From positions 1-64,000 of the forward strand of contig JAGWWS010000011.1 of NCBI GenBank assembly GCA_018970255.1: a DNA stretch of 64,000 nucleotides, read 5' to 3'. The notes below the pieces were generated by a model. It saw nothing but the letters and a program-made list of their open reading frames with translations, was not told the DNA's origin and did not search any database. The DNA is from Verrucomicrobiota bacterium (GTDB taxonomy: Bacteria > Verrucomicrobiota > Verrucomicrobiia > Chthoniobacterales > Terrimicrobiaceae). The position numbers were made by a program, and so were the translations under genes. Position 1 is the stretch's first letter. Each line of letters opens with the position of its first letter. This document shows, piece after piece, positions 38,401 through 55,817 of this stretch.

Positions 38401-40483
38401 CCAAATTGTTGAATCCGTCGGCATCGGGATCGGCGGTGGCGTTCCCCGCGGAAAACAACATTTCCCAGCCATCGGTGATGCCATTCGCATTCGCATCGGA
38501 TGAGAGAGCGGGCGGTTCGGCCTTGCCCAAAATCACAGCGCTGAACGGCGCGACCTGGAAGTTCAGCGTGTTGGTGACACCCGAAGTGGTGAGGTTGCCG
38601 CCTTGGACAGGGCCCACGCCGCCGAGGTCGGATCCGTAGAGTTTCCAGTCACTGTTCACAAAAACTCTCCACGGCCCTGCGGAGGTCGCGTTGACGCTCA
38701 CGGTTCTGTTGGAAGCAGAAAAATTCACCGCCACCAGGATGCTCTCGCTGGCGTTGCCGGTTTTGCGTTCGTAGGCCATCCAGCCCTCCGATTCGTTTGC
38801 AGCCAAAATGGATGTCACATCCGTCAGGTCATCGACCTCCGGCAACGAAGTGAAAGTGAGTGCGCGGGTTTTGTTCGCCAGGTTTCGACGAAGCCCAACC
38901 AAATCGCGGTGAAACCGGACCATTCCCTCAAATCTGCCCGCCCTAAGCCAATCCATCGGCACGGCATCCTTGAATTCGTCCTTCGCGAGGTGCTCCTGGC
39001 CCATCCACAGCATGGGCGTGCCGGCGGATGTCAAAGTGATCGCCGTCGTGAGCATCGTCTTGCGCCGTGCAGCAAGGCTCTCCGGGTTCACAGGATCGAA
39101 ATCGCTGGCGAGCCGCGCGCCATCGGTGGCCGAATTGTGATCGCCGCATTTGTCGTGGTTCTCGGAAAAAATCACGCGAAACCCGGGCGGTTCCTTGGTC
39201 TCGAGTCGGTAGCCGATGTTGGTCCCGTTACGGGTATTCAGCGTTGGAAATTCCAAGCGGCCCACAAAAGGCGCCGGCAGCGTGCCATTTTGCGTGAGCG
39301 GAAGAAGGCGCGGGAAAACCACATTATGGAAAGAAATCTCCCAATGGCCGGAATACCCGCCCGGGGAATTGGCATCCTCCGCGATGCTGTAGTAGCGGGG
39401 GTTCCGCGAATGAATGCTGGCATTGATCTGCTGCATCATCGTGACCGCCTCGGGAATCTCAGTATCCGGATCCCCGATCTGCGCCCCGGGACTCGAATCG
39501 TATCCCGTGATGTTCCTCGGCGAGTCCCAGCGCAGCGCCCAGATTTTATATTCATCAAGATACATCCGGATGTTGTCGCTGATGAATTGCCTCACATTCG
39601 GATCGCTGTAACGCGGCCGCGGACCCCATTTGGTCCGGCTGATGCCGGGTCGCGCGGTCTCATCACTCGCGTTGTAGAAATACGGCTCGCCGCCGTCGAA
39701 ATTCTCCAAATCCGAAGCCCCGGAATCGGCCAGATCGCCATAGTGGTTGTGGACCACATCCACCTGCACGGCCATGCCTTTTTTGTGGGCCTCGTTGACG
39801 AAAAACTTCAACGCATCCGGGCCGCCATAAGTTTCCTCGATCGCGAAAAGCGCGGTCGGGTTGTAGCCCCAGCTATGCCGACCGTTGAACTCGCTTACAG
39901 GCATCAACGCAATCATGTTGACACCGAGGTCGCGGAGGTAATCGAGTTTCAACGCAGCATCGTAAAGAGTCGCCGGTTGGCCATCATTCGGCGTCGGATC
40001 GTAAAAAGACCCGACATGCAGCTCATACATCACAATCTCGTTCGGGAATGGCGGCTCGTAATCCCCGTCCTCCCAAACAAATGCCGCCGTATCGTAAATC
40101 ACCGCCGCCTGTGATCCATCACTCATCGTCCGCACCAGCCTCGCACGCGGATCCTTGCGCCAAAGCTGCGTCCCATTGCCCGCCGTGATCACATATTTGT
40201 AGGCGTGGCCTGTGCGCGCCGCGTTTATCGTTCCGCTCCACACATTCGTCGTGGAATTTTTTGTGAGTGCGTTCGCAGTGGCATTCCAGGAATTGAAATC
40301 CCCCGCCACCCTCACCGCTGAGGCATTCGGGGCCCAAACACGAAAAGTGACGCTGGTTGTGGAATTGCCCGACTTGTTCAGCGTCGCCCCAAGCTCCTGA
40401 GCTCGCACGGGACCAAACACCAAAAAGACGGAAAAAAATGCGAGTGCCAGCGGGAATCCCGCCGGAAACTTGAGGTTGGGCAT
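35474..40483 (-). CDS. Giant secreted GH13 alpha-glucan enzyme with six starch-binding-like modules
   Basis: A 1669-residue protein with a signal peptide (about residues 1-28). A CBM48-like domain (VRVAGDFNSWNATANALTKN) covers about 40-120 and a GH13 barrel about 145-560. The catalytic triad is readable: Asp320 in ALRWDSP, Glu369 in SIAEDANS and Asp444 in SENHDK. From about 660 six units repeat, each with a calcium-type linker (DSDGDGMPDDWER, then DADGD and EFARGSNP) and a beta module with FNGW/FNNW and EFKFxAG. A Verrucomicrobia-type C-terminal domain ends YRIRAW. It probably branches or hydrolyses starch/glycogen outside the cell. Confidence 0.88.
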   Translation of the reverse strand: MPNLKFPAGFPLALAFFSVFLVFGPVRAQELGATLNKSGNSTTSVTFRVWAPNASAVRVAGDFNSWNATANALTKNSTTNVWSGTINAARTGHAYKYVITAGNGTQLWRKDPRARLVRTMSDGSQAAVIYDTAAFVWEDGDYEPPFPNEIVMYELHVGSFYDPTPNDGQPATLYDAALKLDYLRDLGVNMIALMPVSEFNGRHSWGYNPTALFAIEETYGGPDALKFFVNEAHKKGMAVQVDVVHNHYGDLADSGASDLENFDGGEPYFYNASDETARPGISRTKWGPRPRYSDPNVRQFISDNIRMYLDEYKIWALRWDSPRNITGYDSSPGAQIGDPDTEIPEAVTMMQQINASIHSRNPRYYSIAEDANSPGGYSGHWEISFHNVVFPRLLPLTQNGTLPAPFVGRLEFPTLNTRNGTNIGYRLETKEPPGFRVIFSENHDKCGDHNSATDGARLASDFDPVNPESLAARRKTMLTTAITLTSAGTPMLWMGQEHLAKDEFKDAVPMDWLRAGRFEGMVRFHRDLVGLRRNLANKTRALTFTSLPEVDDLTDVTSILAANESEGWMAYERKTGNASESILVAVNFSASNRTVSVNATSAGPWRVFVNSDWKLYGSDLGGVGPVQGGNLTTSGVTNTLNFQVAPFSAVILGKAEPPALSSDANANGITDGWEMLFSAGNATADPDADGFNNLAEFQNQTDPTVPDRVSLPGVFNNWNIASRNMRWEPVRSVWRHVVRFTERGWFNCKAYKPGGWSAGNNGWAPGDDAWFEVPAAGTFEITYSPAGGNYSVVSHDADSNGNGMSDTWEGFYFYPATSANASANPDGDAFTNLQEFQRGSDPTEFDQPAMGVVGGYNGWNWNARNMRYEGHGVWMAAIPFTAAPSDRNYKFGVGPTNDNDNWGQPTLQLPTGYKSSTDFQWASNVSGWRIIRFNEKSSATSVEAPSTTDTDGDSMPDQWERSFGLDAYSAADASTDADGDDVLNRLEFARLSHPLVADRNPVMHMPGDGLWAENDSRTRMVWNRDLARWESVFLANPGLREFKFMAGTYGAGTWGWNGTGTPGVSIKWTNDNLKATLSEAGYYLARFEEISGNYTIAGMPTTDSDGDGMPDDWERFHSFNPAVNDASGDADGDQVLNGFEFARGSNPRLADRNSSMSLVYGPEWNPELQKFRMTWNSAVARWEGAFFGPRSGTLPFKFAAGSWGNGTWGWNGTGTVGASVKWANDDIIASWSGRVWNLVRFEEISGNYTIEPMPATDSNSNGMPDAWERVFEITSPTVDSDSDGVPNAGEFTRGGHPRFADHFASLNMVGDLNGWSFTNRPMTWNSRTLRWEWLERVAATTAEQKMKFVRVDNPNLPNLWENPNWGDNNTPFDNIAESGGSDFKYTVTQAPAYLFFSFDEITNEYFAGVMPATDSNSDGLADAWAGFHGVSGSTGNPDGDPFTNAQEFARGSDPNVADQYFRSHQELRVSGSFNGWSPATAPTMNLVGDNLWRLDLVISNSTAQEFKFVAGNTWNATNWGNGTGNAALPNLGVGNYRFEVNDVTRAFTVALVTNSFSDRYPGFSANQTIRGLSAKVEYLFGGTADQAPPVAHLPTFAPSGSNVRLSFVRRTDDSSLNHVVEFKSDLASGAWQAVSIQPSTEPADTDLQRWTYEIPTAGAPRGFYRIRAW

Positions 40484-42375: not shown

Positions 42376-43029
42376 ATGTCTAAAAAATCCTCCTCTGGAA
42401 ATTCCCTCATCAAAAACATCGCCGTCATTGCCGGCATCTTGATTGTTTTCGTCATCATCCTCCGCGCGGCACTGACTCCCCTTTATCAAGAGGTCGCCGA
42501 CATGGAGCGCTTGCAACAACAGCAGCAACAGCAGTCCTCTCAAAATTCGGGTGGCGGTTCTGGCGGCGGCAGTGGCGGAGGCTCGGGAGAAAACGTCAAT
42601 GTCAACATCGCTCCAGGTGGTTGGTTGAACTGGGCGCTGGGCTGGATGTGGGGCGGTCCCGGTTGGTATGGCGGCCCGAGCTACGGCTGGTGGGGGGCGA
42701 ATATTTGGAATGGCTGGATGAACTGGTGGGGCGGCGGCAACAACCGTGTTTGGAACGGAAATGTGAACGAGACCTTCAATCGCGATGTGAACAACAATTT
42801 CCAGCACGACCGGATCGGCGATGGAAACGATGACCGCCTCCGCGACGATCTCGGCGATGGAAACGATGACCGCCTCCGCGACGATCTCGGCGATGGAAAT
42901 CTCCGCGATGCCGAGAGGGATGCTGTCCGCGAGGGAGGCGACGGCGGCGGGGAGCGTCGCGAGGAAGGCGGCTTCCATGGATTCGAAGGTGGTGGTGGAG
43001 GCGGAGGACACCACGGCGGTCGCAGATAA
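42376..43029 (+). CDS. Single-pass membrane-anchored low-complexity protein
   Basis: A 217-residue protein of unknown function. One membrane segment (NIAVIAGILIVFVIILRAAL) is followed by a poly-Gln run, Gly/Ser repeats, a Trp/Gly-rich belt (WLNWALGWMWGGPGWYGGP), an Asp/Arg repeat (GDGNDDRLRDDL twice) and a Gly/His-rich tail. The bulk is probably outside the membrane. It lies between pfp and nusA on the same strand, 80 bases after pfp. The low-complexity part evolves by slippage, as the exact DNA repeat shows. Confidence 0.7.
   Translation: MSKKSSSGNSLIKNIAVIAGILIVFVIILRAALTPLYQEVADMERLQQQQQQQSSQNSGGGSGGGSGGGSGENVNVNIAPGGWLNWALGWMWGGPGWYGGPSYGWWGANIWNGWMNWWGGGNNRVWNGNVNETFNRDVNNNFQHDRIGDGNDDRLRDDLGDGNDDRLRDDLGDGNLRDAERDAVREGGDGGGERREEGGFHGFEGGGGGGGHHGGRR
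42816..42887 (+). repeat. Exact 36-base tandem duplication within a coding region
   Basis: Two identical 36-base units (42816-42851 and 42852-42887) encode GDGNDDRLRDDL twice; a third unit begins at 42888 and diverges after 12 bases. The frame is kept. Confidence 0.9.
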
Positions 43030-43177
43030 TTTTTCTGAAACCCCCGACCGCGAGAACGGGGCAATTGGGGGTTGACCACCCCAACCATCCCGCCCATATT
43101 TGCCGGTCCGGGAAATCAACGATGCAGACGGGCTCCGGCCCGTTTGTTCGTTTTATGACGCCCGCACAAACGAGTTT

Positions 43178-44437
43178 ATGAATTCCGAACTGATCACAAT
43201 GCTGGACCTGCTCGAGCGCGAGAAGGGCATCAAACGGGCCGTGCTCGTCGATGCCATTTCCACAGCGATCCTCGCGGCATCCAAGAAAAGCTTCACCTCC
43301 GGCACCCGCGAACTCCGCATCGACATCAACCCCCAGACCGGCGCCATCCGCGCCCTCGCCCGGTTGATCGCCGTCGAAAAAGTGGACAACCCCCACGACG
43401 AGGTCCTGCTTTCGAAAGCCCGCGCCGCCAAGCCGGACGCAAAGCCGGGCGACGAGGTGGAAATCGAAGTCACCCCGCGCGACTTCGGCCGCATTGCCGC
43501 CCAAGCCGCCCGCCAGGCCATCAACCAGCGCCTTCGCCAAATCGAGCGCGAGATGATCTATGACGAATTCAAGGACCGCGCCGGCGAGATTGTGACCGGC
43601 ACCGTCCGCCGCTTTGAGAAGTCCGATGTCATCATCGACCTCGGCAAGTTCGAGGGCGTCATGCCCTCCCGCGAGCGCGTCCTCACCGAGGAATACAATG
43701 TCGGCGACCGCCTCCGCGCCTATGTCGTCGCCGTCGAGACCGGCAACCGCGGCCCCGAGATCATCCTCTCCCGCAGCCATCCGAATTTTGTCCGCCGCCT
43801 CTTCGAACTCGAGGTCAGCGAAATCGCCGACCGCACCGTGGAACTCAAGGTCATCGCCCGCGAAGCCGGCTTCCGCACGAAGGTCGCCGTCCACAGCGGC
43901 GATGCCAAGGTCGACCCCGTCGGCGCCTGCGTCGGCATGCGCGGGGCCCGCGTGAAAAATATCGTCCGCGAACTCAACAACGAAAAAGTGGATATCATCC
44001 GCTGGGACCCGGACCCCTTGAAATTCGTCGGCGCGGCCCTCAAGCCAGCGAACATTCGCTCCATCACCGCCGACGAGGCCACGAAGACCATCCATGTCCT
44101 CGTCCCGAAGGACGACCTCTCGCTCGCCATCGGCCGCCGCGGCCAAAACGCCCGCCTCACCTCGAAAATGTGCGGCTGGGATGTCGATATCCAGGAAGAC
44201 CTTCGCGACCAGCAAGCCATGCAAACCAAGACCGCCGAGGCCGCGCAATCGCTCGCGGGCGTCCTTGGAATCACCGAAGAGCAGGCGCAAAAACTCACCG
44301 AAAGCGGGATGAACTCGGTCGAGGTGGTCCTCACGGCCGCCGCGGAAGACATCGCGGGCGTCCTCGGCTGCGATGCGGAAACCGCGCAGCGCATCCTCGA
44401 AGCGGCCCAGGCACAACAAAAAGCCCCCGCCGCCTGA
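43178..44437 (+). CDS. nusA: Transcription termination/antitermination factor NusA
   Basis: A 419-residue NusA. The N-terminal RNA polymerase-binding domain covers residues 1-130, an S1 domain follows (GEIVTGTVRRFEKSDVIIDL), then two KH domains with VDPVGACVGMRGARVKNIV and LAIGRRGQNARLTSKM. A short C-terminal helical repeat (ITEEQAQKLTESGM, DAETAQRILEAAQ) replaces the E. coli AR1/AR2 domains. ATG 43178 gives the standard start. It heads the nusA-infB run; rimP is not upstream. Confidence 0.94.
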   Translation: MNSELITMLDLLEREKGIKRAVLVDAISTAILAASKKSFTSGTRELRIDINPQTGAIRALARLIAVEKVDNPHDEVLLSKARAAKPDAKPGDEVEIEVTPRDFGRIAAQAARQAINQRLRQIEREMIYDEFKDRAGEIVTGTVRRFEKSDVIIDLGKFEGVMPSRERVLTEEYNVGDRLRAYVVAVETGNRGPEIILSRSHPNFVRRLFELEVSEIADRTVELKVIAREAGFRTKVAVHSGDAKVDPVGACVGMRGARVKNIVRELNNEKVDIIRWDPDPLKFVGAALKPANIRSITADEATKTIHVLVPKDDLSLAIGRRGQNARLTSKMCGWDVDIQEDLRDQQAMQTKTAEAAQSLAGVLGITEEQAQKLTESGMNSVEVVLTAAAEDIAGVLGCDAETAQRILEAAQAQQKAPAA

Positions 44438-44474: not shown

Positions 44475-46610
44475 ATGGCAGACAAACTCAAATCCAAGCC
44501 CACCGAAAAGAAGCCCGCCGCAGCCAAGCGCCCGGCGGCTTCCGCACGCGCCAAGCGCCCCGCCGATGCGGCTCCCGCCACTGAAGCTGCCAAACCCGCC
44601 CCCAAGCCCCCAGGACCCACGCTCGACCTCCTTGAGCCCGCCAAGAAGGTAAAAAAATCGGACCCCTCGAAAGCCGCGGGCCTCAAGCCGTTCATCAAGC
44701 CCCTCGGGCAACCCGCCGCCCCGCCCCCGCCACCCGCGCCACCAGTCGCGGAAAAAGTTGAAGCCCCCGAGCCCGCCCCGTCGCCGGAACCCGAAGCCGC
44801 CCCCGAGGCACCGTCCGTCGACGCCTCCGGCCGCAAGGTCATCCAAATCAAACCCCCGATCGTCGTCCGCGCCCTCGCCGACCACCTCGGTCTAAAGCCG
44901 TTCCAGCTCATCAAGGACCTCATGTCCTTGCAGATTTTTGCGAACCTCAACCAAACCGTCGAAGCCGATGTCGCCGCGAAAGTCTGCGAAATGCACGGCT
45001 TCGTCTTCGAGCGCGAGCGCAAGGACACCTCGAAAGGCCACCACAAGGTCGAACAAAAAATCGAGGTCCCGAAAGCCCCCGCGCCCGCGAAGGCCGAGGA
45101 ACTCCAAAACCGCGCGCCCATCATCACTTTCATGGGCCATGTGGACCACGGCAAAACCTCGCTCCTTGATTCCATACGCAAATCCCGCGTCGCAGCCGGC
45201 GAGGCGGGCGGCATCACCCAGCACATCGGCGCCTACAGCGTCGAGCGCAAGGGGCAAAAAATCACTTTCCTCGACACACCCGGCCACGCCGCCTTCACGG
45301 CCATGCGCGCCCGCGGCGCGAATGTCACAGACATCGTCGTCCTTGTGGTCGCCGCCGACGACGGCCTCATGCCCCAGACCCTCGAAGCCATTTCCCACGC
45401 GAAGGCCGCCAAGGTCAAAATCGTCGTCGCCATCAACAAAATCGACCTCCCGTCCGCCAATGCCGACCGCGTTAAGCAGCAACTCCAGGAAAAAGGCCTC
45501 GCGCCCGAAGATTGGGGCGGCGACACAATTTGCGTCCCGGTCAGCGCGACCAAGGGCACCGGCATCGACCAGCTTTTGGAATCCGTCCTCCTCGAATCCG
45601 AAATGCTGGAACTCAAGGCCAGCCCCGCCCAACCCGCCCGCTGCAATGTCATCGAAGCGCAGGTCGAGCAGGGCCGCGGCCCCACCACAACCGTGATTGT
45701 CCGCACCGGAACGCTCCGCGCCGGCGATGTGTTCATTTGCGGCAACCACTGGGGCAAGGTCAAACAGCTCATCGACGACCTCGGCAAACCCGTAAAGGAA
45801 GCCGGTCCCTCCACGCCCGTGAAGGTCCTCGGCCTCAGCGGCCTCCCGAATGCCGGCGACGAACTCGTCGTGATGGATTCCGAGAAATCCGCCCGCATCC
45901 ACAGCGAGGAGCGGCTCGCCGAACTCCGCGATTCCAAGCTCGCCGCCCCGCAACGCGCCACGCTGGAGAACCTCTTCGCCAGCATCGCCTCGGATGCCAA
46001 GCCCACGCTCAAAGCCATCGTCAAATGCGATGTCCAGGGCTCGCTCGAAGCCGTCGTGGCCTCGCTCAACGAAATCCCGCAGAAGAAAATCACCCTCGAT
46101 ATCATCCACTCGGCCGTCGGCCCCATCACCGAGTCGGACGTCCTCCTCGCCAGCGCCTCGAACGCCATCATCATCGGCTTCAATACCAAGACCGAAAACA
46201 CCGGCGCCCAGGCGGCCAAGCGCGAGGGCGTCCAAATCAAGCTCTACAGCATCATTTACGAACTCCTCGACCAGGTCCGCGAGGCCATGGGCGGCATGCT
46301 CGCCCCGGAACTCCGCGAAGCCGTCATCGGCCACGCCGAGGTCAAGCAGGTCTTCGACCTCACGAAAGGCAAGGTCGCCGGCTGCATGGTGGTGGACGGC
46401 CGCATCGCCCGCACCGCCCGCGCCCGCGTCCTGCGCCGCAAGCAGCCGATCTACGACGGCGGCATCGCGACCCTCCGCCGCTTCTCGGACGAAGTGAAGG
46501 AAGTCCGCTCCGGCCTCGAGTGCGGCATCAAACTCGGCGATTTCTCCGAATACATGGCCGAGGACATCATCGAGTGCTACACGCTCGAAAAAATCCCGCA
46601 GCAACTCTAA
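44475..46610 (+). CDS. infB: Translation initiation factor IF-2
   Basis: A 711-residue IF-2. The first ~140 residues are lysine/alanine/proline-rich and disordered. A short IF2-N region leads to the GTPase at about 220 (GHVDHGKTSLLDSIRKSRVA, DTPGHAAF, NKIDLPSA). The C2/C3 domains end DFSEYMAEDIIECYTLEKI. IF-2 brings initiator tRNA to the ribosome. It starts 37 bases after nusA and is followed by rbfA; the three are co-transcribed in many bacteria. Confidence 0.96.
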   Translation: MADKLKSKPTEKKPAAAKRPAASARAKRPADAAPATEAAKPAPKPPGPTLDLLEPAKKVKKSDPSKAAGLKPFIKPLGQPAAPPPPPAPPVAEKVEAPEPAPSPEPEAAPEAPSVDASGRKVIQIKPPIVVRALADHLGLKPFQLIKDLMSLQIFANLNQTVEADVAAKVCEMHGFVFERERKDTSKGHHKVEQKIEVPKAPAPAKAEELQNRAPIITFMGHVDHGKTSLLDSIRKSRVAAGEAGGITQHIGAYSVERKGQKITFLDTPGHAAFTAMRARGANVTDIVVLVVAADDGLMPQTLEAISHAKAAKVKIVVAINKIDLPSANADRVKQQLQEKGLAPEDWGGDTICVPVSATKGTGIDQLLESVLLESEMLELKASPAQPARCNVIEAQVEQGRGPTTTVIVRTGTLRAGDVFICGNHWGKVKQLIDDLGKPVKEAGPSTPVKVLGLSGLPNAGDELVVMDSEKSARIHSEERLAELRDSKLAAPQRATLENLFASIASDAKPTLKAIVKCDVQGSLEAVVASLNEIPQKKITLDIIHSAVGPITESDVLLASASNAIIIGFNTKTENTGAQAAKREGVQIKLYSIIYELLDQVREAMGGMLAPELREAVIGHAEVKQVFDLTKGKVAGCMVVDGRIARTARARVLRRKQPIYDGGIATLRRFSDEVKEVRSGLECGIKLGDFSEYMAEDIIECYTLEKIPQQL

Positions 46611-46655: not shown

Positions 46656-47009
46656 ATGAAAAACCGCCTCGCCAGGGTCTGCGAAGTCATCAAACGGGAA
46701 CTCGGCCTGCTCATCCCGCGCCAAATCGAGTTCGGCGGGGCGCTCGTCACCGTCAGCGGCGTGGACATCACGCCGGACCTCAAGCAGGCCCATGTCTTCA
46801 TCTCGGTCCTCGGGGGCGGCCCCGGCGCCCGCCGCCGCGCCATGGAACTCCTCGATGCCCACCGCGCCGAACTCCAATCGGGCATCGCCTCCCACATCAA
46901 AATGAAAAACACGCCCCACCTCCACTTCCGCCTCGACGAGTCCGTGGAGCGCGGCTCGCGCATCATCGGCATCATGGACGAACTCGGCCTGCTGGAGGAA
47001 AAACAATGA
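46656..47009 (+). CDS. rbfA: Ribosome-binding factor A
   Basis: A 117-residue RbfA with the KH-like fold: NRLARVCEVIKRELGLLIPR, then VTVSGVDITPDLKQAHVFIS and a C-terminal PHLHFRLDESVERGSRI. It helps 16S rRNA maturation in the small subunit. It starts 45 bases after infB and ends in an ATGA overlap with the DHH phosphoesterase. Operon position is normal. Confidence 0.93.
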   Translation: MKNRLARVCEVIKRELGLLIPRQIEFGGALVTVSGVDITPDLKQAHVFISVLGGGPGARRRAMELLDAHRAELQSGIASHIKMKNTPHLHFRLDESVERGSRIIGIMDELGLLEEKQ

Positions 47010-47977
47010 GCGCGACTTTCGATTCCATCGCCGCTGCCGTTGCAAGTGCGCACACCATCGGAGTCGCCAGCCACATCCGGCCCGATGCCGACGCACTCGG
47101 TTCCACCATCGCCTTCGCCATGTGGCTCCGCTCGCTCGGCAAGGACGCCCGCGCGTTCAACGAGGAGGGCTCGACCCCGAAGTTCCACTACCTCCCCGGC
47201 CACGAACTTGTCGCCACCCCGCCGGCCGCACCGCAAAAATTCGACCTCTTCGTCGCCCTCGACACCTCGGTGAAAAACCGCCTCGGCACCGTCCTCGGCG
47301 CCATTGCGCCCGGCACGCCGCTCGCGAACATCGACCACCATGTCAGCAACGAGCAATTCGGCGACCTCAACTTCGTGGACCCCACCGCACCGGCCACCGG
47401 GCAAATCCTGGTCGAATTCTTCCGCCACACCGGCGCCGAGATCACCCCGGCCATGGCCGCAAACCTCTTCGCCGCGATTTCCACGGACACCGGTTCGTTC
47501 CAATACGCGGGAACCAACGAGCGCACCTTCGCCGCCGCCTCGCACTTGATTTCCTGCGGCGTCGATGTGCCGGGGCTTTCGCGCGCGATGTATGATTCGC
47601 AGCCCCGCCGCCGCTTCAACCTGCTGCGCCACGCGCTCAACACCGCGGAGTTCCATTGCGGCGACCGCATCGCCTCGTTTTCCCTGCCGCTCGAAACCGT
47701 GCGCGAACTCCAGGTCGTCCCCGAGGACAACGAGGGCATCATCGACCACCTCCGCTCCGTCGAGGGCGTCGAGGCAGCCGTGTTTTTCGAGGAACTCCCG
47801 GAAGGGAAAGTCCGCGTCAGTTCGCGTTCGAAGTTCCCCTCTATCGATGTCTGCAAGGTTTGCAAAATCTTCGGCGGCGGCGGGCATCCGATGGCCGCCG
47901 GCGCGCGCATCAACGGCCCCCTTCAAAAAGTGAAACACGACTTCCTCCAAGCCCTCGCCAATGAAATCCGGAACTGA
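47006..47977 (+). CDS. nrnA: DHH-family bifunctional oligoribonuclease/PAP phosphatase
   Basis: A 323-residue DHH/DHHA1 protein. SHIRPDADALGS and the signature NIDHHVSNEQFGD bind the metal ions; the C-terminal DHHA1 half ends KIFGGGGHPMAAGARI. NrnA degrades short RNA and 3'-phosphoadenosine 5'-phosphate. The latter is a by-product of PAPS use, matching the cysCDN operon in the same window. It overlaps rbfA by 4 bases and truB by 17. Confidence 0.92.
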   Translation: MSATFDSIAAAVASAHTIGVASHIRPDADALGSTIAFAMWLRSLGKDARAFNEEGSTPKFHYLPGHELVATPPAAPQKFDLFVALDTSVKNRLGTVLGAIAPGTPLANIDHHVSNEQFGDLNFVDPTAPATGQILVEFFRHTGAEITPAMAANLFAAISTDTGSFQYAGTNERTFAAASHLISCGVDVPGLSRAMYDSQPRRRFNLLRHALNTAEFHCGDRIASFSLPLETVRELQVVPEDNEGIIDHLRSVEGVEAAVFFEELPEGKVRVSSRSKFPSIDVCKVCKIFGGGGHPMAAGARINGPLQKVKHDFLQALANEIRN

Positions 47978-48683
47978 CATCGACGGCGTCCTCCTCGTGG
48001 ACAAATCGCCGGGTATGACATCCCACGATGTCGTCGCCATCACGCGCCGCTCGCTCGACACCAAAAAAGTCGGCCACTGCGGCACGCTTGACCCGCTCGC
48101 CACCGGCCTCCTCATCATCACCATCGGCCGCGGCACGAAAATCCAGGACCTCCTCATGAGCGAGGACAAGGAATATGCCGGCACCCTCCGCCTCGGCGAA
48201 ATCACGGACAGCCAGGATTCCGACGGCCAAATCGTTGAAACCCGCCCGGTCCCGGAGTTTTCACGGGAACAACTCGATGCCGCCTTTGCGAAATTCCACG
48301 GCGATTTCTACCAGACCCCGCCGATGGTCAGTGCCATCAAGAAGGACGGCGTGCCGCTCTACAAGCTCGCGCGCCAGGGCAAGACCGTCGAGCGCGAGCC
48401 CCGCTTCGTCCATGTCTACGCCCACGAGATCAAGGAAGTCCGCCCGCAGGAAATCGATTTCCGAGTTGTGTGCAGCAAGGGTTTCTATGTCCGCACCTAC
48501 GCCCACGACATCGGCCAGGCGCTCGGCTGCGGCGCCCACCTGAAATCCCTGCGCCGCACGAAATCCGGGAAATTCTCGGTGGACGGAGCCATCACCGTCG
48601 AGGAACTCAAAGCCGGCCCCGCCAGCGCCATTGCCGCACGGGTCCTCAGCCTGCCGACCGTCTCCCGGCTCCGCGGCGCATAA
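47961..48683 (+). CDS. truB: tRNA pseudouridine(55) synthase
   Basis: A 240-residue TruB. VDKSPGMTSHDVVAITRR opens the fold and GHCGTLDPLATGLL carries the catalytic Asp. YEGTLR-like EYAGTLRLGEITDSQDSDG and FHGDFYQTPPMVSAIK are further signatures. It modifies U55 in tRNA. No PUA domain is present, giving a short form. The start is 17 bases inside nrnA and ribF begins 2 bases after its stop. Confidence 0.95.
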   Translation: MKSGTDIDGVLLVDKSPGMTSHDVVAITRRSLDTKKVGHCGTLDPLATGLLIITIGRGTKIQDLLMSEDKEYAGTLRLGEITDSQDSDGQIVETRPVPEFSREQLDAAFAKFHGDFYQTPPMVSAIKKDGVPLYKLARQGKTVEREPRFVHVYAHEIKEVRPQEIDFRVVCSKGFYVRTYAHDIGQALGCGAHLKSLRRTKSGKFSVDGAITVEELKAGPASAIAARVLSLPTVSRLRGA

Positions 48684-48685
48684 CC

Positions 48686-49624
48686 ATGCCCATCCTCCGC
48701 TCCATCGACGCGCTCGCGGAAATCGAACGGCCCGTCGTCCTGGCGGCGGGGGTTTTCGACGGGATGCACCTCGGCCACCAGGCGGTGCTCCGCGCCGCAT
48801 TGGCCCAATCGGAAAAAACCGGCGGCACCGCCGTCGCGCTCACCTTCGACCCGCACCCCGCTGCGGTCCTGCGGCCGGGCAAATCCCCCCGCATCCTGAC
48901 CTCCACCGAACTCAAGCTCCGCCTCATGGCCGAACTCGGCGTCCCGGCCGCCCTCGTCGTGGAATTCAACGCCGCCTTCGCCGCCGTCGAGGCCGGGGAC
49001 TTCATCAGGCACCTCCACGCCTCCGCGAAAAAACTCGCCGGAATTTGCGTGGGGGAAGGTTGGCGGTTCGGCCATGCGCGGAAGGGCGACGCCGCACTGC
49101 TGCGCTCGCTCGGATCGGAACTCGGATTTTCCACCACTTCCGTCGAACCCGTCGAAATCGATGGGGCCGTCGTGAGCAGCACTTCCATACGGGCGGCGCT
49201 CGAAAGCGGCGACCTCGCCACCGTTTCGAAACTCCTCGGCCGCGACTACGCCATCCCGGGCACAGTCCTCCGCGGGCGCGGCATGGGGCGCCAACTCGGC
49301 TTCCCCACCGCAAACATCGGCAACCACGGCGAACAATTCCCTCCCGACGGCGTGTATGCCGTCCGCGCCAGCCTCGATGGCGAAAGCCTCGGCGGCGTCG
49401 CCAATATCGGCGTGCGCCCGACCGTCACCGATTCGCGCGAAAGGGCGCTCGAAGTCCACCTGTTCGATTTTTCCCGCGATATCTACGGCTCCGAAATCGA
49501 GGTCGCATTCCTCCACTACCTCCGCCCCGAAAAAAAATTCTCCGGCCCCGGGGAACTCCGCCGGGCCATTGAAACCGATGCCACCACCGCGCGCGGCATC
49601 CTCTCGTCCCGCCAAGCCGCATGA
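48686..49624 (+). CDS. ribF: Bifunctional riboflavin kinase/FAD synthetase
   Basis: A 312-residue RibF. The N-terminal FMN adenylyltransferase has GVFDGMHLGHQAVL and VGEGWRFGHARKGD, with SSTSIRAALESGD closing it. The C-terminal riboflavin kinase domain starts GTVLRGRGMGRQLGFPTANI. It converts riboflavin to FMN and FAD. ATG 48686 is used; the frame runs on into truB. The stop overlaps the following ATP-grasp gene by ATGA. Confidence 0.95.
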   Translation: MPILRSIDALAEIERPVVLAAGVFDGMHLGHQAVLRAALAQSEKTGGTAVALTFDPHPAAVLRPGKSPRILTSTELKLRLMAELGVPAALVVEFNAAFAAVEAGDFIRHLHASAKKLAGICVGEGWRFGHARKGDAALLRSLGSELGFSTTSVEPVEIDGAVVSSTSIRAALESGDLATVSKLLGRDYAIPGTVLRGRGMGRQLGFPTANIGNHGEQFPPDGVYAVRASLDGESLGGVANIGVRPTVTDSRERALEVHLFDFSRDIYGSEIEVAFLHYLRPEKKFSGPGELRRAIETDATTARGILSSRQAA

Positions 49625-52140
49625 GCGCCCGCTGGCATTTCCGCACCTTCGACGAAAATTGCGGTCCCGACGGCCAGCCGCGCGAAGTTTACCGCCCGCT
49701 CTTCGCCCGCATCGGCGATATGGCCGATTCGCAGCTCCGCTCCCTCGACAGCCGCCTCGAAGCCACGATGCGCGAGATGGGCGTCACCTTCGACATCCAC
49801 CGCGAACTCCCCTGGACCAAGCGCGCTTGGTTCTGCGACCTGCTCCCCCAGATTTTCACCCCCGCCGAGTGGTCGCCGCTCGCCGCCGGAATCCGCCAGC
49901 GCCTCCGCGCCTTCGAGATGTTCCTTGCCGATATTTATTCGGAGAAAAAAATCCTCCTCGACGGTGCGGTTCCGGTCACGCCCGTCCTCGGCAGCGATTT
50001 TTTCCAGCGCGCCGCCCACGGGCTCCCCACGCCGGGCTCGTCGCGCCTGCACCTCAGCGGCATCGCCGTTTGCCGGCTGCCCGACGGCACGCTCGCCGCG
50101 AAGCACCACTATTTCGCGAACGCCTCGGGAATTTCCTACATGGTGCAAAACCGCCGCGCCCTCACGCGCGTCATTCCCCAATCTTTCCACGACACCGGCA
50201 TCCACCCGATTTCCGACGCACCCACGCGCATCATCGAAATGCTCCGCTCCCTCTCGCCGGAGCCTGACCCCATGGTCGTCCTGCTCACGCCCGGACCGCT
50301 CAGCCCCGCGTATTCGGAGCACAGCTTCCTCGGCCGCCGCATGGGCATCCCGCTCGTGCAGGGCGGCGACCTCCTCGTCCTCAACGACGAGGTCTACCTC
50401 AAAACCGTCTCCGGCCTGAACAAGGTCGATGTCATCTACTCGCGCCTTTCAGACCGCTGGCTCGACCCCATGGTTTTCCGCCGCGATTCCGTCCTCGGCG
50501 TGCCGGGGCTCGTGCATTGCATCCGCAAAAAAAGCGTGGCCGTCGTCAATGGCATCGGTTCCCAACTCGCCGACGACCGCGCCTTGCTGCCGTTCTCGCA
50601 GCAAATCATCCGCTATTACCTCGGCGAGCGCCCGCTGTTGCCGACGCTGCCCACCTATTGGCTCGGCGACCCCGACCAGCGCGACATGGTCCTCGGCGAC
50701 CTCGAAAAATTCACCATCCGCGTCCTCTACGGCGAGGAGATTGTCCTCGGCGGCGACGGTCGGCTCCCCCAGGAGGAAAAAATCGAAGCGGCCCGCGCGA
50801 GGATTGCCGCCAACCCCTCGGGGTTCGTCGCGCAGCCGCAGGCCTGCGATGCGGAAACCATCTCGTTCCAGGAGGGCGAACGCCGCCGCCGCCGCCAGGA
50901 CCACATCGTTTTCGCCATCCGCGAGGGCAACGATTTCCATGTCTTCCCCGGCGCGCTCACCCGCGTTTCCACATCCAGTTCCGAATTCACCTCCTCCGAA
51001 CTCGGCGGCGGCTCGAAGGACACCTGGGTCCAGGTCGGCCTCGGCACCGGCGCAGACGAATGGGACCCCTCGCGCCAAATCGATGCGAAGCTCCCGTCCC
51101 ACGGCGTCAGCAGCCGCGTCGCGGATTCGTTCTACTGGATCGGCCGCTACCTCGAGCGCGCCTACGACCTCGCAGGAATGGTCGCCGCCATCGAGTCCTT
51201 GGAACTCGAGGAACTCAACCCCGTCGAGCGGATGAACTACCGCCCGGTCTGGAACCGCATCCTGCCTGTCCTTGAAGGGCATGGCTCCCCCACGCGCCGC
51301 ACAATTTCGAGCCCCGAGGGGCGCTACCGCCTCACGCTCGACCCCGCCGAACCGGGCTCCATCACGGCCACGATTTCACGCGCGTTCGGCAACGCCCAAT
51401 CCGTTTTGGAAACATTGAGCATCGATGCGTGGGCCGTCATGAACCGCATCCGCGAAAAATTCGATGCGGCCGGTTTCGCGCCCGATGCGCCCGCCGAGGC
51501 GCTTGCCTCCACGAGCCGCGACCTTTGCCTCTTCGCCCGCGGCACCATCCCGCAATTTTTCGGCACCGCAAAAGCCACCATGCTCGCGGACGACGGCTGG
51601 GGTTTTTGTGAAATCGGCCAACTCATCGAACGCGCCGCCGTCACAGCCAATGCCGTCACCTCGATTTCCGCCTCGCTCCTCGAGAACGCCGATTCCTCCC
51701 GCCGACGCGGCGCCCTCGAAATCCGCCTCTCGGCCTTCCTGCGCATGCTGAACAGCCGCGACATCTACCGCCGCGTTTACCAAATGCGCATCGAGCCCCT
51801 GCCCATGCTCGAACTCCTCTGGGCGAACCCGGTGACGCCGCGTTCCGTCCTCCGCTGCCTGAACGGCTGCGCCTCCCGCATCCGCGAGAGCGAGAGCGGC
51901 CTCTCCCCCGCAACCGGGCGCGCCTTGTCCGAAATCGAGGCCCTTGTTTCGGCCATCCGCTCCACCGATTGGGCGGCGCTCCTCGAATCGGGAACCGGCG
52001 GCTCCGCGAAACCCCGAATCCAAGCCCACTCCGAGTCGCTCCTCGCATCCCTCCTCGCCCTCCACACCACGATTTCCGACAGCTTCCTGAACCACCAAAT
52101 CCTGATGCACGGCGGCACGCGCCCGCTTTTTTCGAACTGA
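49621..52140 (+). CDS. Fused circularly permuted ATP-grasp and alpha-E domain protein
   Basis: An 839-residue fusion. Residues about 1-480 are a circularly permuted type 2 ATP-grasp (DUF404/407 type): RPLFARIGDM, TPGPLSPAYSEHSFLGRRMG and VLGDLEKFTIRVLYGEE. Residues about 497-830 are an alpha-E helical domain (SRVADSFYWIGRYLERAYDL, IGQLIERAAVTANAVT). In other genomes these are often separate genes next to transglutaminases, proposed to make or trim peptide bonds. Two transglutaminases follow here. The substrate is unknown. It overlaps ribF by 4 bases. Confidence 0.9.
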   Translation: MSARWHFRTFDENCGPDGQPREVYRPLFARIGDMADSQLRSLDSRLEATMREMGVTFDIHRELPWTKRAWFCDLLPQIFTPAEWSPLAAGIRQRLRAFEMFLADIYSEKKILLDGAVPVTPVLGSDFFQRAAHGLPTPGSSRLHLSGIAVCRLPDGTLAAKHHYFANASGISYMVQNRRALTRVIPQSFHDTGIHPISDAPTRIIEMLRSLSPEPDPMVVLLTPGPLSPAYSEHSFLGRRMGIPLVQGGDLLVLNDEVYLKTVSGLNKVDVIYSRLSDRWLDPMVFRRDSVLGVPGLVHCIRKKSVAVVNGIGSQLADDRALLPFSQQIIRYYLGERPLLPTLPTYWLGDPDQRDMVLGDLEKFTIRVLYGEEIVLGGDGRLPQEEKIEAARARIAANPSGFVAQPQACDAETISFQEGERRRRRQDHIVFAIREGNDFHVFPGALTRVSTSSSEFTSSELGGGSKDTWVQVGLGTGADEWDPSRQIDAKLPSHGVSSRVADSFYWIGRYLERAYDLAGMVAAIESLELEELNPVERMNYRPVWNRILPVLEGHGSPTRRTISSPEGRYRLTLDPAEPGSITATISRAFGNAQSVLETLSIDAWAVMNRIREKFDAAGFAPDAPAEALASTSRDLCLFARGTIPQFFGTAKATMLADDGWGFCEIGQLIERAAVTANAVTSISASLLENADSSRRRGALEIRLSAFLRMLNSRDIYRRVYQMRIEPLPMLELLWANPVTPRSVLRCLNGCASRIRESESGLSPATGRALSEIEALVSAIRSTDWAALLESGTGGSAKPRIQAHSESLLASLLALHTTISDSFLNHQILMHGGTRPLFSN

Positions 52141-52142
52141 CC

Positions 52143-53012
52143 ATGCTTTTCGAAATCGTGCACACCACCGCCTACCGCTACGCGGACGCCGCGATGGAAG
52201 CCTACATCGAGGCCCGCCTTACACCGCCCGAGCGCCCGACCCAGGAAGTGCTGCGCCACCGCATCGAGTTCGAGCCCGCCGCCCGCGTTTCCGAATACAC
52301 GGACTATTTCGGCAACACCGCGACCTTCTATTCCATGACCCTGCGCCACACCCGCCTCAAGGTCACCAACCGCGCCACCGTCCGCACCAAGGAACACCGC
52401 CTGCCCGCTGGCGGCCTGGCACCCACCGTCGCCGAGGCCCGCCAAATCCTCTCCTCCGCCGGCACCCGCATTTTCGACTACATCCAACCAAGCGCCGCCG
52501 TCCCCCTGCGCGGCCCATCTTCCACTTGGGCGCGCGAACTCGTCCGCCCCGACCGCCCGCTCGGCGATTGCCTCGAAGCCCTCAATTCCGCCATCCACCG
52601 CGAATTCCAATACCGCTCCGGCTCGACCGACAACGAAACCCCTCTCGATGAAGTCTGGGAAAAGCGCGAAGGCGTTTGCCAGGATTTCGCCCATGTGATG
52701 CTCGGCATCCTTCGCACGGCCGGCATCCCGTGCCGCTATGTCTGCGGATACATCGAGACCGAGCCCGCCCACCCCGGCGAAAAACTCGTCGGAGCCGTCG
52801 CCACCCACGCCTGGGTCGAGGTCCTGGTCCCCGGCATGGAATGGGTCGCCCTCGACCCCACGAACAACAAATGGCAGGGCGAGCAGCATGTCGTGGTCGC
52901 GGTGGGCAGGGACTATCTTGACGCCACCCCCGTCCGCGGCACATTCAAGGGCGCGGCGTCCCAGCAAATGAAGGTCCAAGTCACCATGCGCCGAATGGAA
53001 GGGAAACCATGA
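52143..53012 (+). CDS. Transglutaminase-like cysteine protease (first of two)
   Basis: A 289-residue protein with an N-terminal beta-domain (FEIVHTTAYRYADAAMEAYI) and a C-terminal transglutaminase core. Catalytic residues are visible: Cys about 179 in REGVCQDFAHVML, His about 222 in ATHAWVEVLVPG and Asp about 238 in LDPTNNKW. No signal peptide, so it acts in the cytoplasm. It starts 2 bases after the ATP-grasp/alpha-E gene and overlaps the second transglutaminase. These probably hydrolyse peptides or form isopeptides made by the ATP-grasp enzyme. Confidence 0.9.
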   Translation: MLFEIVHTTAYRYADAAMEAYIEARLTPPERPTQEVLRHRIEFEPAARVSEYTDYFGNTATFYSMTLRHTRLKVTNRATVRTKEHRLPAGGLAPTVAEARQILSSAGTRIFDYIQPSAAVPLRGPSSTWARELVRPDRPLGDCLEALNSAIHREFQYRSGSTDNETPLDEVWEKREGVCQDFAHVMLGILRTAGIPCRYVCGYIETEPAHPGEKLVGAVATHAWVEVLVPGMEWVALDPTNNKWQGEQHVVVAVGRDYLDATPVRGTFKGAASQQMKVQVTMRRMEGKP

Positions 53013-53857
53013 AACTCCGCATCAAAAAGGAAACCAGCTACACCTACGCGCGGCCGGTCTCGTTCGGCCCGCACCATGTCCGCGTCTTCCCCCGCGCCGA
53101 CCTCTCCGTGAATGTCGGGAAAATCGACTTCTCCACCGGTGCCGGCGGCGATGTCCAATTCCGCCAAGACCTCTTCGACAACCACATCGCATATTGTTTC
53201 TACCCGAACCCCTCCGCCTCGCTGCCGTTCCGGCTCGAGATGGAAATCGAGGTCCGCGAAAAAAACCCGTTCCACTTCCTGCTCGACCCGGGCGGCCTGC
53301 AAATCCCGCCCGCCTACAAGCCGCAGGCGCTTGAAATCCTCCAGCCCTACCTTTCTCCCGCCGGGGATTGCAAACTCCCGGAACCGCTCGCGCCCACCGT
53401 CCCCCGCCCGACCGTCGAAACGCTCGTGAATTTCAACCACTGGCTCCACGAAAACCTCGACTACATCCCGCGCGAGGAGGGCGAGCCACAAACGCCCGCC
53501 GAAACGCTCGCCAAAGGCTCCGGTTCCTGCCGCGATTTCGCCGTTCTCCTCGCCGAGGCGCTCCGCCGCAATGGTGTTGCCGCCCGCCTCGCCAGCGGTT
53601 TCGTGTGGGAAGGCGACAAGCCGAAAAAAGAAAAACGCTCCACCGGCGCGATGCACCTTTGGGTTGAAGCCTGTCTCCCCGGCGCCGGCTGGATCGGCCT
53701 CGACCCCACCAACGGCGTCCTCACCGACCACCATTTCATCACCACCGCCGTCGGGCGCTTCCATGCCGATGTCGCCCCGGTCTCCGGTGCCTACTACAGC
53801 GACGACCCCGTCGAATCCGAAATGTCCTCCAAGGTTTCCGTGGAGAAAATTCCATGA
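53009..53857 (+). CDS. Transglutaminase-like cysteine protease (second of two)
   Basis: A 282-residue paralogue with the same plan: KETSYTYARPVSFGPHHVRV, then Cys about 174 in GSGSCRDFAVLL, His about 215 in AMHLWVEACLPG and Asp about 231 in LDPTNGVL. Sequence between the two copies is much diverged, so they likely split roles. It overlaps the first copy by 4 bases. It closes the cassette; the next gene starts 51 bases on and is unrelated. Confidence 0.9.
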   Translation: MKLRIKKETSYTYARPVSFGPHHVRVFPRADLSVNVGKIDFSTGAGGDVQFRQDLFDNHIAYCFYPNPSASLPFRLEMEIEVREKNPFHFLLDPGGLQIPPAYKPQALEILQPYLSPAGDCKLPEPLAPTVPRPTVETLVNFNHWLHENLDYIPREEGEPQTPAETLAKGSGSCRDFAVLLAEALRRNGVAARLASGFVWEGDKPKKEKRSTGAMHLWVEACLPGAGWIGLDPTNGVLTDHHFITTAVGRFHADVAPVSGAYYSDDPVESEMSSKVSVEKIP

Positions 53858-53908: not shown

Positions 53909-54721
53909 ATGAAATTCTTCGAAGGCTGCACCTCGCTCATCACCGGCGCCTCCTCCGGCCTCGGGGCGGAATTCGCCCGCCAGCTCGCCCCCTTCGCCCG
54001 CCGCCTCGTGCTCGTCGCCCGCCGCAACCAGCGCCTCGAAGAACTCTCCTCCGAACTCCGCAGGGTCCACCCGAACCTCGATGTCCGCGTTTTTTGCGCC
54101 GACCTCTCCGACCCTGCGCGCCGCCATGCGTTGGCCGATTGGCTCCGCGGCGAAGGCATCCGCGTCGATTTCCTCGTGAACAACGCCGGGCTCGGCGACC
54201 ACGGCGAATTCGAAACCGCCGATTGGAACCGCGTGCGCGAAATGCTCGACCTCAACATCACCGCACTCACCCACCTCACGCACCTCCTCGTCGGCCCCAT
54301 GGCTGCATCCGGCCGCGCAGCCATCCTGAATGTCAGCAGCGTCGCAGGCTTCATCCCGCTCCCGAACATGGCGGTCTACGCCGCGACCAAAGCCTATGTC
54401 ACCAGCTTCTCGGAAGCGCTCGGCATCGAACTCCGCCCGAAGGGCATCACCGTCACCGCGCTTTGCCCCGGCCCCGTGAAAACCGAATTCTTCGACATCG
54501 CCACCCGCCCCGGCGGCGAAGGCCAAGCCTCGCATTTCAAAACCTTCCCCATTTTCGTCGTCCCGCCGAACGAAGCCGTCCGCGCCGGCCTCGAAGCCGT
54601 GGCCCGCGACCGGGCGCGCGTGGTCCCCGGCCCCATCCTCGCCGCCGCCGTGGCCTTGGCGCTTGCAGTCCCCTTCTGCATCGTGCGCCATTTCCTCCGC
54701 GCCAAAGCCTCCACCCTTTAG
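53909..54721 (+). CDS. Short-chain dehydrogenase/reductase
   Basis: A 270-residue classical SDR. TGASSGLG (about residues 12-19), NNAG near 90, the serine in LNVSSVAGF and YAATK are all present. A C-terminal hydrophobic helix (ILAAAVALALAVPFCIV) suggests membrane attachment, as in the DltE/SadH-like lipid-related subgroup. It sits directly before the polyprenyl synthase gene, 11 bases apart, so an isoprenoid or lipid substrate is possible. This is inference. Confidence 0.87.
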   Translation: MKFFEGCTSLITGASSGLGAEFARQLAPFARRLVLVARRNQRLEELSSELRRVHPNLDVRVFCADLSDPARRHALADWLRGEGIRVDFLVNNAGLGDHGEFETADWNRVREMLDLNITALTHLTHLLVGPMAASGRAAILNVSSVAGFIPLPNMAVYAATKAYVTSFSEALGIELRPKGITVTALCPGPVKTEFFDIATRPGGEGQASHFKTFPIFVVPPNEAVRAGLEAVARDRARVVPGPILAAAVALALAVPFCIVRHFLRAKASTL

Positions 54722-54732
54722 GAACCCGAAAC

Positions 54733-55737
54733 ATGCCCGCCGCCACCAAAAAAACCGCCGACGCCGGCAGCCCCTCGTTCGCCGAGGCGTTCGAACTCGT
54801 CAACCCGCACCTCTACACCGTCGAGGAACGCATCCGCGCCCAGGCGAAATCCTTCGACCCCGCGGTCGAAGGCTACATTTCCTACGTCTGCGGCGCCGGC
54901 GGCAAACGCCTCCGCCCCGCCCTCGCGCTGCTCTCCGCCGGCGCCACCGGGAAAATCACGCCCGCCCATGTGGACCTCGCGGTCATCCTCGAGCTCATCC
55001 ACATCGCCACGCTCGTCCACGACGACATCATCGACGGCGCCGAACTCCGCCGCGACCAACCCTCCGCCAACGCCAAATGGGGCAACGCCATCAGCGTCCT
55101 CCTCGGCGATGTCCTCTTCGCCCACGCCCTGCGGCTCTCCACGAATTTCAGCAACTCCGACATCTGCCGCCGCATCGCCGACGCCGCAGCCGAAGTTTGC
55201 TCCGGCGAAATCCTGCAAACCCAGCGCCGCTTCGACCTCAAGCTCACCACCGCGGACTACTACCGCATCATCGAGATGAAGACCGCCGCGCTCTTCTCGG
55301 CCGCGTGCGAACTCGCCGCATTCATCTCCGAGTCCAGCCCCGCCGTCATCGGCGCGCTGAAAACCTTCGGCACCAAGCTCGGCACCGCCTACCAAATCTA
55401 CGACGACATCCTCGACCTCGCCGGCAACGAAGAGGAAACCGGGAAAACGCTCGGCACCGACCTGAAGAAAGGCAAATTCACTCTCCCCGTTTTGCTCGCC
55501 CTGCATGGCGGCAAGGACATAGCCGGCCTCCGCGACCTTTTGCTCAACGAGGAATCCGCACCCGATGCGCTGGCATCGCTCCTTCACGGCTCCGGCGCCG
55601 TGGACAGCGCGAAATCCATCGCCCGCCGACTCATTTCCGAAGCCTCGGAACAGCTCGGCGAAATCCAGGACAACCGCTACGCCCGCGGCCTCCGCGCCAT
55701 CCCCCAGCACCTCGACGGCCTGCTCAACGGGCTCTAA
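54733..55737 (+). CDS. Trans-polyprenyl diphosphate synthase
   Basis: A 334-residue all-helical synthase. GGKRLRPALALLSAG, the first Asp-rich motif LVHDDIIDGAELRR and the second YQIYDDILDLAG are clear. Such enzymes build the octaprenyl or similar chain of quinones. Residues before the first Asp motif suggest a long-chain product, but length cannot be set from sequence alone. The start at 54733 follows the SDR by 11 bases. It uses precursors from the IspE pathway. Confidence 0.91.
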   Translation: MPAATKKTADAGSPSFAEAFELVNPHLYTVEERIRAQAKSFDPAVEGYISYVCGAGGKRLRPALALLSAGATGKITPAHVDLAVILELIHIATLVHDDIIDGAELRRDQPSANAKWGNAISVLLGDVLFAHALRLSTNFSNSDICRRIADAAAEVCSGEILQTQRRFDLKLTTADYYRIIEMKTAALFSAACELAAFISESSPAVIGALKTFGTKLGTAYQIYDDILDLAGNEEETGKTLGTDLKKGKFTLPVLLALHGGKDIAGLRDLLLNEESAPDALASLLHGSGAVDSAKSIARRLISEASEQLGEIQDNRYARGLRAIPQHLDGLLNGL

Positions 55738-55817
55738 GAAAAGACGGGGCGTTCATTCTTGAAAGCTGTGCACGTGCTGCACATTTTTCGAGGCACGGAA
55801 ACTTCCGCAGCCTCACT

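Follow-up and report, generated by a model that had tools for sequence, protein, structure and literature searches.

The ATP-grasp/alpha-E/transglutaminase gene set is widespread, and the question of its substrate dates from 2009. A role in amide or peptide modification was proposed for the operon that combines these genes with Anbu (Iyer et al. 2009, as taken up in PMC6376114 and PMC5666114), and phosphate release from ATP has been seen with the purified split ATP-grasp of the Yersinia Anbu operon (PMC6376114). Trypanothione synthetase holds two Mg ions through D330, E344 and N346 and binds the ATP phosphates through K513 and K548 (PMC3581523). The locus analysed here encodes the same domain set, as judged from Pfam matches, the alpha-E ER motif and the transglutaminase triads, which upholds the link to the published peptide-modification proposal made in the original prediction. 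The same prediction spoke of an undescribed system; what we find instead is a variant of one that has already been described.

The window, a stretch of 64,000 nucleotides, is part of a 2.56 Mb genome in 88 contigs. Its closest named relatives are Spartobacteria/Terrimicrobiaceae MAGs, mostly lake-derived (AMD-G4, UBA5019, Lake Pavin) and placed in the order Chthoniobacterales, Verrucomicrobiota; the window's genus is called freshwater. The upstream part of the operon lies on the plus strand and has the same gene order in relatives: nusA (43172-44437), infB (44478-46610), rbfA (46656-47009), a DHH phosphoesterase gene named from its sequence (47006-47977) and truB (47961-48683), with nusA, infB, rbfA and truB assigned by Pfam. 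These are followed on the same strand by ribF, encoding FAD synthetase/riboflavin kinase (48686-49624; Pfam FAD_syn and Flavokinase), which shares a 4-nt ATGA overlap with the gene for an 839-residue ATP-grasp/alpha-E fusion protein (49621-52140). Pfam places both domains in this one protein: a circularly permuted ATP-grasp domain in residues 1-470 (49621-51030; CP_ATPgrasp_2, PF14403, 367 bits; CP_ATPgrasp_1, PF04174, 309 bits) and an alpha-E domain in residues 497-839 (51109-52140; PF04168, 167 bits). Two transglutaminase-fold cysteine enzymes come next on the plus strand, TG1 (52143-53012; PF01841 and PF08379) after a gap of 2 nt and TG2 (53009-53857; Transglut_core and Bact_transglu_N) after a 4-nt overlap. 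The coordinates and junctions originally given for these genes are exact, and Pfam agrees with the permuted ATP-grasp fused to alpha-E and the two transglutaminases behind it. The directon continues 51 nt after TG2 with a Pfam-assigned SDR oxidoreductase (53909-54721, plus strand) and a polyprenyl synthetase named from its sequence (pps, 54733-55737, plus strand), both in genus-conserved synteny. Recent transfer of the cassette was rejected for now, the GC3 of its genes (0.80-0.84) being equal to that of the neighbours. Two further reading frames of the window were noted in passing: one of 217 residues just upstream of nusA (42376-43029), which has an internal tandem repeat (GDGNDDRLRDDL) and stretches rich in Gln, Gly and Asn, and one of 1669 residues on the minus strand (35474-40483), whose N-terminal half looks amylase-like by eye and precedes several mutually similar repeats that bear calcium-binding-like motifs.

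Throughout the genus, even where the fusion is only 45% identical (G022), the genes follow the order nusA-infB-rbfA-DHH-truB-ribF-fusion-(TG1)-TG2-SDR-pps. Adjacency of ribF and the fusion gene was found in 15/15 testable genomes of the genus (G024, which cannot be tested, lies outside this count) and persists at ribF identities as low as 48%. This genus-wide gene order, the overlap and the spacing support the view that the cassette continues the nusA-ribF operon. A promoter-like site is present before nusA, but at chance frequency, and the terminator-like stem after pps (55767-55783) is not above chance either; the operon interior showed no above-chance terminator and, in a scan that knows the sigma-70 consensus only, no promoter-like site. 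Beyond the genus the picture changes. The other genera of the family have a ribF operon without the cassette, which is located elsewhere: in sister genera it is intact and adjoins other genes, for example rpsI or aroB/dihydroorotate dehydrogenase. Outside the family, 41 genomes have the fused gene and 38 of them a ribF match, with both on one contig in a single case, a genome from another family (G026, the same as L114) in which one gene separates ribF from the cassette. Contig breaks in MAGs may hide some ribF links from this count, but the well-assembled G008, G010 and G027 clearly lack it. The intervening gene of G026 (L114:7856-8974) looks from its sequence like a member of the M24 family (Xaa-Pro peptidase-like). 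The linkage is thus not unique to the genome of the window, being found in the 15 genomes of the genus and in G026; as a general housekeeping rule it is not supported, since the two genes share no contig in the family's other genera or in 37 of the 38 further genomes of the order that carry both. From this pattern of adjacency across genus, family and order, the ribF link is older than this species and stable in one genus, and it is not general.

Whether the junction with ribF has any functional meaning is an evenly balanced matter. A cassette under its own selection may have landed there once and stayed by inertia, with read-through expression sufficing, and the intact cassettes that sister genera hold beside rpsI or aroB/dihydroorotate dehydrogenase speak for this, as does the one case in 38 elsewhere in the order, where the M24 peptidase gene lies between the two. 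Against inertia stands the adjacency itself, which was retained throughout the testable genomes of the genus despite the divergence of ribF and despite the relocation of TG1 in one subclade. In that subclade TG1 is out of the operon, and in three of the four genomes concerned it was found on another contig (G015, G018, G021). There TG1 (L189:5076-5999, L190:5038-5952, L191:1-843) adjoins a small gene beginning MKQ(K/R)ILIVDGHSMIF, and a gene resembling it was found close to the cassette in another genus (L044:12407-12877); the small gene may mark an older position of the cassette.

The ATP-grasp domain of the fusion protein has kept its fold and the majority of its structural residues, but not the canonical residues of its metal and nucleotide site. 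PDB 3n6x is its only PDB sequence match (E 3e-85) and the best structural match of an AF2 model of the domain (pLDDT 80; TM 0.87 on target). A residue table was compiled from 33 fused Chthoniobacterales proteins and 38 canonical ones (family cassette-B copies, described below, other phyla and 3n6x). All 33 fused proteins lack D148, E161, N163, R165, K321, K368, G374-G375-Y376-G377 and R430 (3n6x numbering), whereas D148, E161, N163, K321, K368 and the GGYG loop are conserved in at least 94% of the canonical sequences. The window protein has A149, H162, Y164, A166, R320, R367 and I429 at the lost sites and E373-I374-V375-L376 where the canonical proteins have their Gly loop; both ATP-phosphate lysines have become arginine, and D318/D319 are retained. 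The D..ExN site can be aligned without ambiguity thanks to the anchors on either side of it (H..G....R and SG.SY..xNR), and the cassette-B copy of the same genome retains the canonical residues. The counterparts of the lost residues in trypanothione synthetase are those that hold the two Mg ions and the ATP phosphates. E. coli GspS shows D..ExN and K..Gly-loop in the same order as the canonical relatives; since profile alignment of the ATP-grasps to GspS (hhalign) gave no significant match, residue equivalence rests on motif order and the shared fold. The domain is 79-80% identical to its nearest relatives, with a dN of 0.14 and a dS of 0.9 (dN/dS about 0.15), tighter than ribF, and is under strong purifying selection rather than decaying. 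As Mg ligands, ATP lysines and Gly loop are lost from a domain that is nevertheless under selection, the fused ATP-grasp is probably not a classical ligase. The assumption that it makes a peptide in the usual way is not supported, given the loss of the Mg and ATP residues in 33 of 33 fused proteins of the order, and inspection of the active site, which had been suggested as a check, revealed the fold of 3n6x around a non-canonical metal/nucleotide site. The absence of these ligands is no proof that the domain cannot bind nucleotides, given the arginines in place of the lysines and the remaining D318/D319.

Similar losses occur outside the order. Fused proteins encoded on Azospirillum, Sinorhizobium, Caballeronia and Tsukamurella plasmids likewise lack E161, N163 and the Gly loop, all of which are kept in the split proteins from the Caballeronia and Sinorhizobium plasmids. 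We tentatively propose, at somewhat short of even confidence, that fused ATP-grasp/alpha-E proteins of several phyla are conserved pseudo-ligase (or re-purposed ATP-grasp) adaptors for transglutaminase-fold enzymes that exist beside a separate split canonical ligase, and that in the genus of the window such an adaptor, together with its two cysteine enzymes, has become part of a core translation operon. A single origin of the fusion across phyla was considered and set aside, the tree having three clusters and no outgroup to root it.

A different explanation of the same residues, which we regard as rather unlikely, is that the fused ATP-grasp catalyses a new kind of reaction, in which the conserved H163, Y164, R320, R367, Q426, H428 and C300 would activate or bind a different phospho-donor or an acyl group. 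Thirty-four type-specific positions (at least 90% in the fused group, at most 10% in the canonical one), several of which lie at the former active site, could be read in this way, as could the exchange of both phosphate lysines for arginine instead of a neutral residue and the purifying selection on the domain. The conserved set differs in the fused proteins of other phyla, however, which have x-x-R for E-x-N and no H428, so that no single new site is common to the fused proteins, and the joint loss of three carboxylate/amide metal ligands and the Gly loop is the usual sign of a pseudoenzyme.

The other parts of the cassette are intact. In the alpha-E domain, R509, R513, E670 and R671 are invariant and E512 is nearly so among 31 relatives, which includes the ER motif (E512, R513, E670, R671); its AF2 model is good (pLDDT 90) and had no match in the PDB below E 0.001. 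Transglutaminase-fold enzymes hydrolyse or transfer amides, and the intact Cys-His-Asp sets predicted for both proteins are present: C179/H222/D238 of TG1 is invariant in 35 sequences and C174/H216/D232 of TG2 in 36. TG1 and TG2 are the only transglutaminases of the genome above the Pfam cut-off.

A fourth gene is missing. Most of the order, sister genera included, has a four-gene cassette, fusion-TG1-TG2-DUF2126 amidoligase, with DUF2126 following TG2, and in other phyla TG2 is fused to or adjoins DUF2126. The operon of the window's genus has lost DUF2126, and 14 of its 16 genomes are without any copy; an unlinked one was found in the genome of the window (contig C64; L093:6854-8836) and in G011. 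These two copies are 60% identical and have different surroundings, and both group with a copy from a genome outside the family (L118, the VE1 genome) and not with the family's cassette copies (100 SH-aLRT), which disfavours vertical descent for the copy in the genome of the window. The copy on contig C64 retains many residues that are conserved across phyla. Loss of DUF2126 from the operon followed by regain is apparently the simplest reading of these sequences. Repeated loss is possible, since several other genomes of the order (L117, L121-L124) likewise have no DUF2126 beside TG2.

The canonical counterpart of the fused cassette (cassette A) is cassette B, a split ATP-grasp and alpha-E pair on contig C16 (L033:8953-12229), unlinked to the fused genes and followed, in this genome and in most family relatives, by a squalene/phytoene-synthase-like gene. 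The ATP-grasp gene of the pair occupies positions 23798-25189 of contig C16. No transglutaminase gene is found in the cassette-B neighbourhood. At least one further ATP-grasp match is present in 59 of 65 fused-type genomes of the order, a raw count that ignores kinship and in which only the second matches within the family are established as canonical; the six genomes without one are all under 90% complete. About as many genomes of the order have the other ATP-grasp type only. Because of this asymmetric co-occurrence, again with kinship ignored, the data suggest that the fused cassette needs the canonical one, co-occurrence being all that points to a functional tie between cassettes A and B.

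We give about an even chance to a reading in which the fused-protein cassette belongs, as a variant, to the known ATP-grasp/alpha-E/transglutaminase amide-bond system, with a pseudo-ligase adaptor that offers a substrate to two cysteine enzymes. An amide or isopeptide product would come from cassette B, with or without DUF2126. The fused protein would not ligate, but bind this product or its carrier as a non-catalytic adaptor, leaving TG1 and TG2 to cleave the amide bond by hydrolysis or to transfer it in the cytosol. Expression would be tied to the translation operon in the genus of the window only, where placement behind ribF would make it constitutive. In favour of this reading are the residue losses in the fused proteins of the order and of other phyla, the canonical residues of the cassette-B copy, the purifying selection on the domain, the 34 positions conserved in the fused type alone, the co-occurrence with a second ATP-grasp, the ATP turnover of the split Yersinia protein, and the retention of TG1 on another contig in three of the four genomes that lack it in the operon.

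Use of the cassette for nitrogen salvage, in which the transglutaminases of nitrogen-limited cells would act on amide-linked peptides to free ammonia or amino acids, seems improbable. Relatives of these genes are nitrogen-starvation genes elsewhere, belonging to the NtrC/sigma-54 regulon in Burkholderia cenocepacia (PMC5491218) and rising on nitrate in Pseudomonas putida (PMC8050072), but in the window they are carried along by a translation operon, and the sigma-70 consensus scan found no promoter-like site within it. The scheme of the original prediction, an active ATP-grasp ligase that synthesises a peptide or tag for the transglutaminases to trim as a housekeeping modification, agrees with the domain make-up, the gene co-occurrence and the published Anbu-operon proposal (PMC6376114, PMC5666114) but is very unlikely, as canonical ligand residues are lost in all fused proteins of the order examined and the GS-like DUF2126 ligase is absent from the operon and from 14 of the 16 genomes of the genus.

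Two further candidates were rejected. A proteasome-fold gene (PF00227, Anbu) was found in none of 26 family genomes, and in 41 genomes of the order such genes are absent or never on the contig of the cassette, so an Anbu or other proteasome-fold partner was discarded. Adjacent pairs of proteasome-fold genes resembling 20S alpha/beta (families f4, f5 and f6) do occur in many Chthoniobacterales genomes, never on a cassette contig. An anti-phage defence system was dismissed after PADLOC gave no match for six proteins. A comparison with NCBIfam yielded nothing at E 0.001.

If the fused class are not ligases, the gene with the looks of a ligase should not be the one assayed as such: the split copy suits a ligation test and the fused copy a binding test. 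The stripped-down, constitutively placed cassette of this genus—an adaptor and two transglutaminases, mostly without DUF2126 and with no Anbu—would offer a minimal set for the substrate hunt.

Compared with described systems, the cassette resembles the Anbu operon in combining a permuted ATP-grasp, an alpha-E domain and a transglutaminase in one operon. It differs in having no Anbu, a fused ATP-grasp/alpha-E protein that has lost metal and nucleotide residues, two transglutaminases and a site in the nusA-ribF operon. The putative glutathionylspermidine synthase of Methylobacillus flagellatus (3n6x) has the same fold as the window ATP-grasp, but keeps D148, E161, N163, K321, K368 and GGYG and has no alpha-E domain. 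E. coli GspS and Leishmania TryS also share the ATP-grasp fold (2io7 and 2vob are among the Foldseek matches of the ATP-grasp model), and the D..ExN order is common to them and the canonical relatives of the window protein; the window protein itself lacks the Mg ligands and has no significant sequence similarity to either. A proteobacterial cluster on a plasmid of Caballeronia sp. Sq4a (NZ_CP084253.1, 216022-223032) encodes a fused ATP-grasp/alpha-E protein, a TG-DUF2126 protein and a further transglutaminase. Like the window cassette, it has a fusion without E161, N163 and the Gly loop and one stand-alone transglutaminase; its other transglutaminase is linked to DUF2126, and a canonical split pair lies nearby, whereas in Chthoniobacterales TG2 is separate from DUF2126 and in the genus of the window DUF2126 is out of the operon. 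In an unrooted tree with three clusters, the Chthoniobacterales fused proteins form a deep branch separate from the proteobacterial ones. The literature searched, which did not include Iyer et al. (2009), held no statement that fused ATP-grasp/alpha-E proteins are pseudo-ligases; the gene set is already known, and the fused ATP-grasp as a pseudo-ligase variant of it is probably new.
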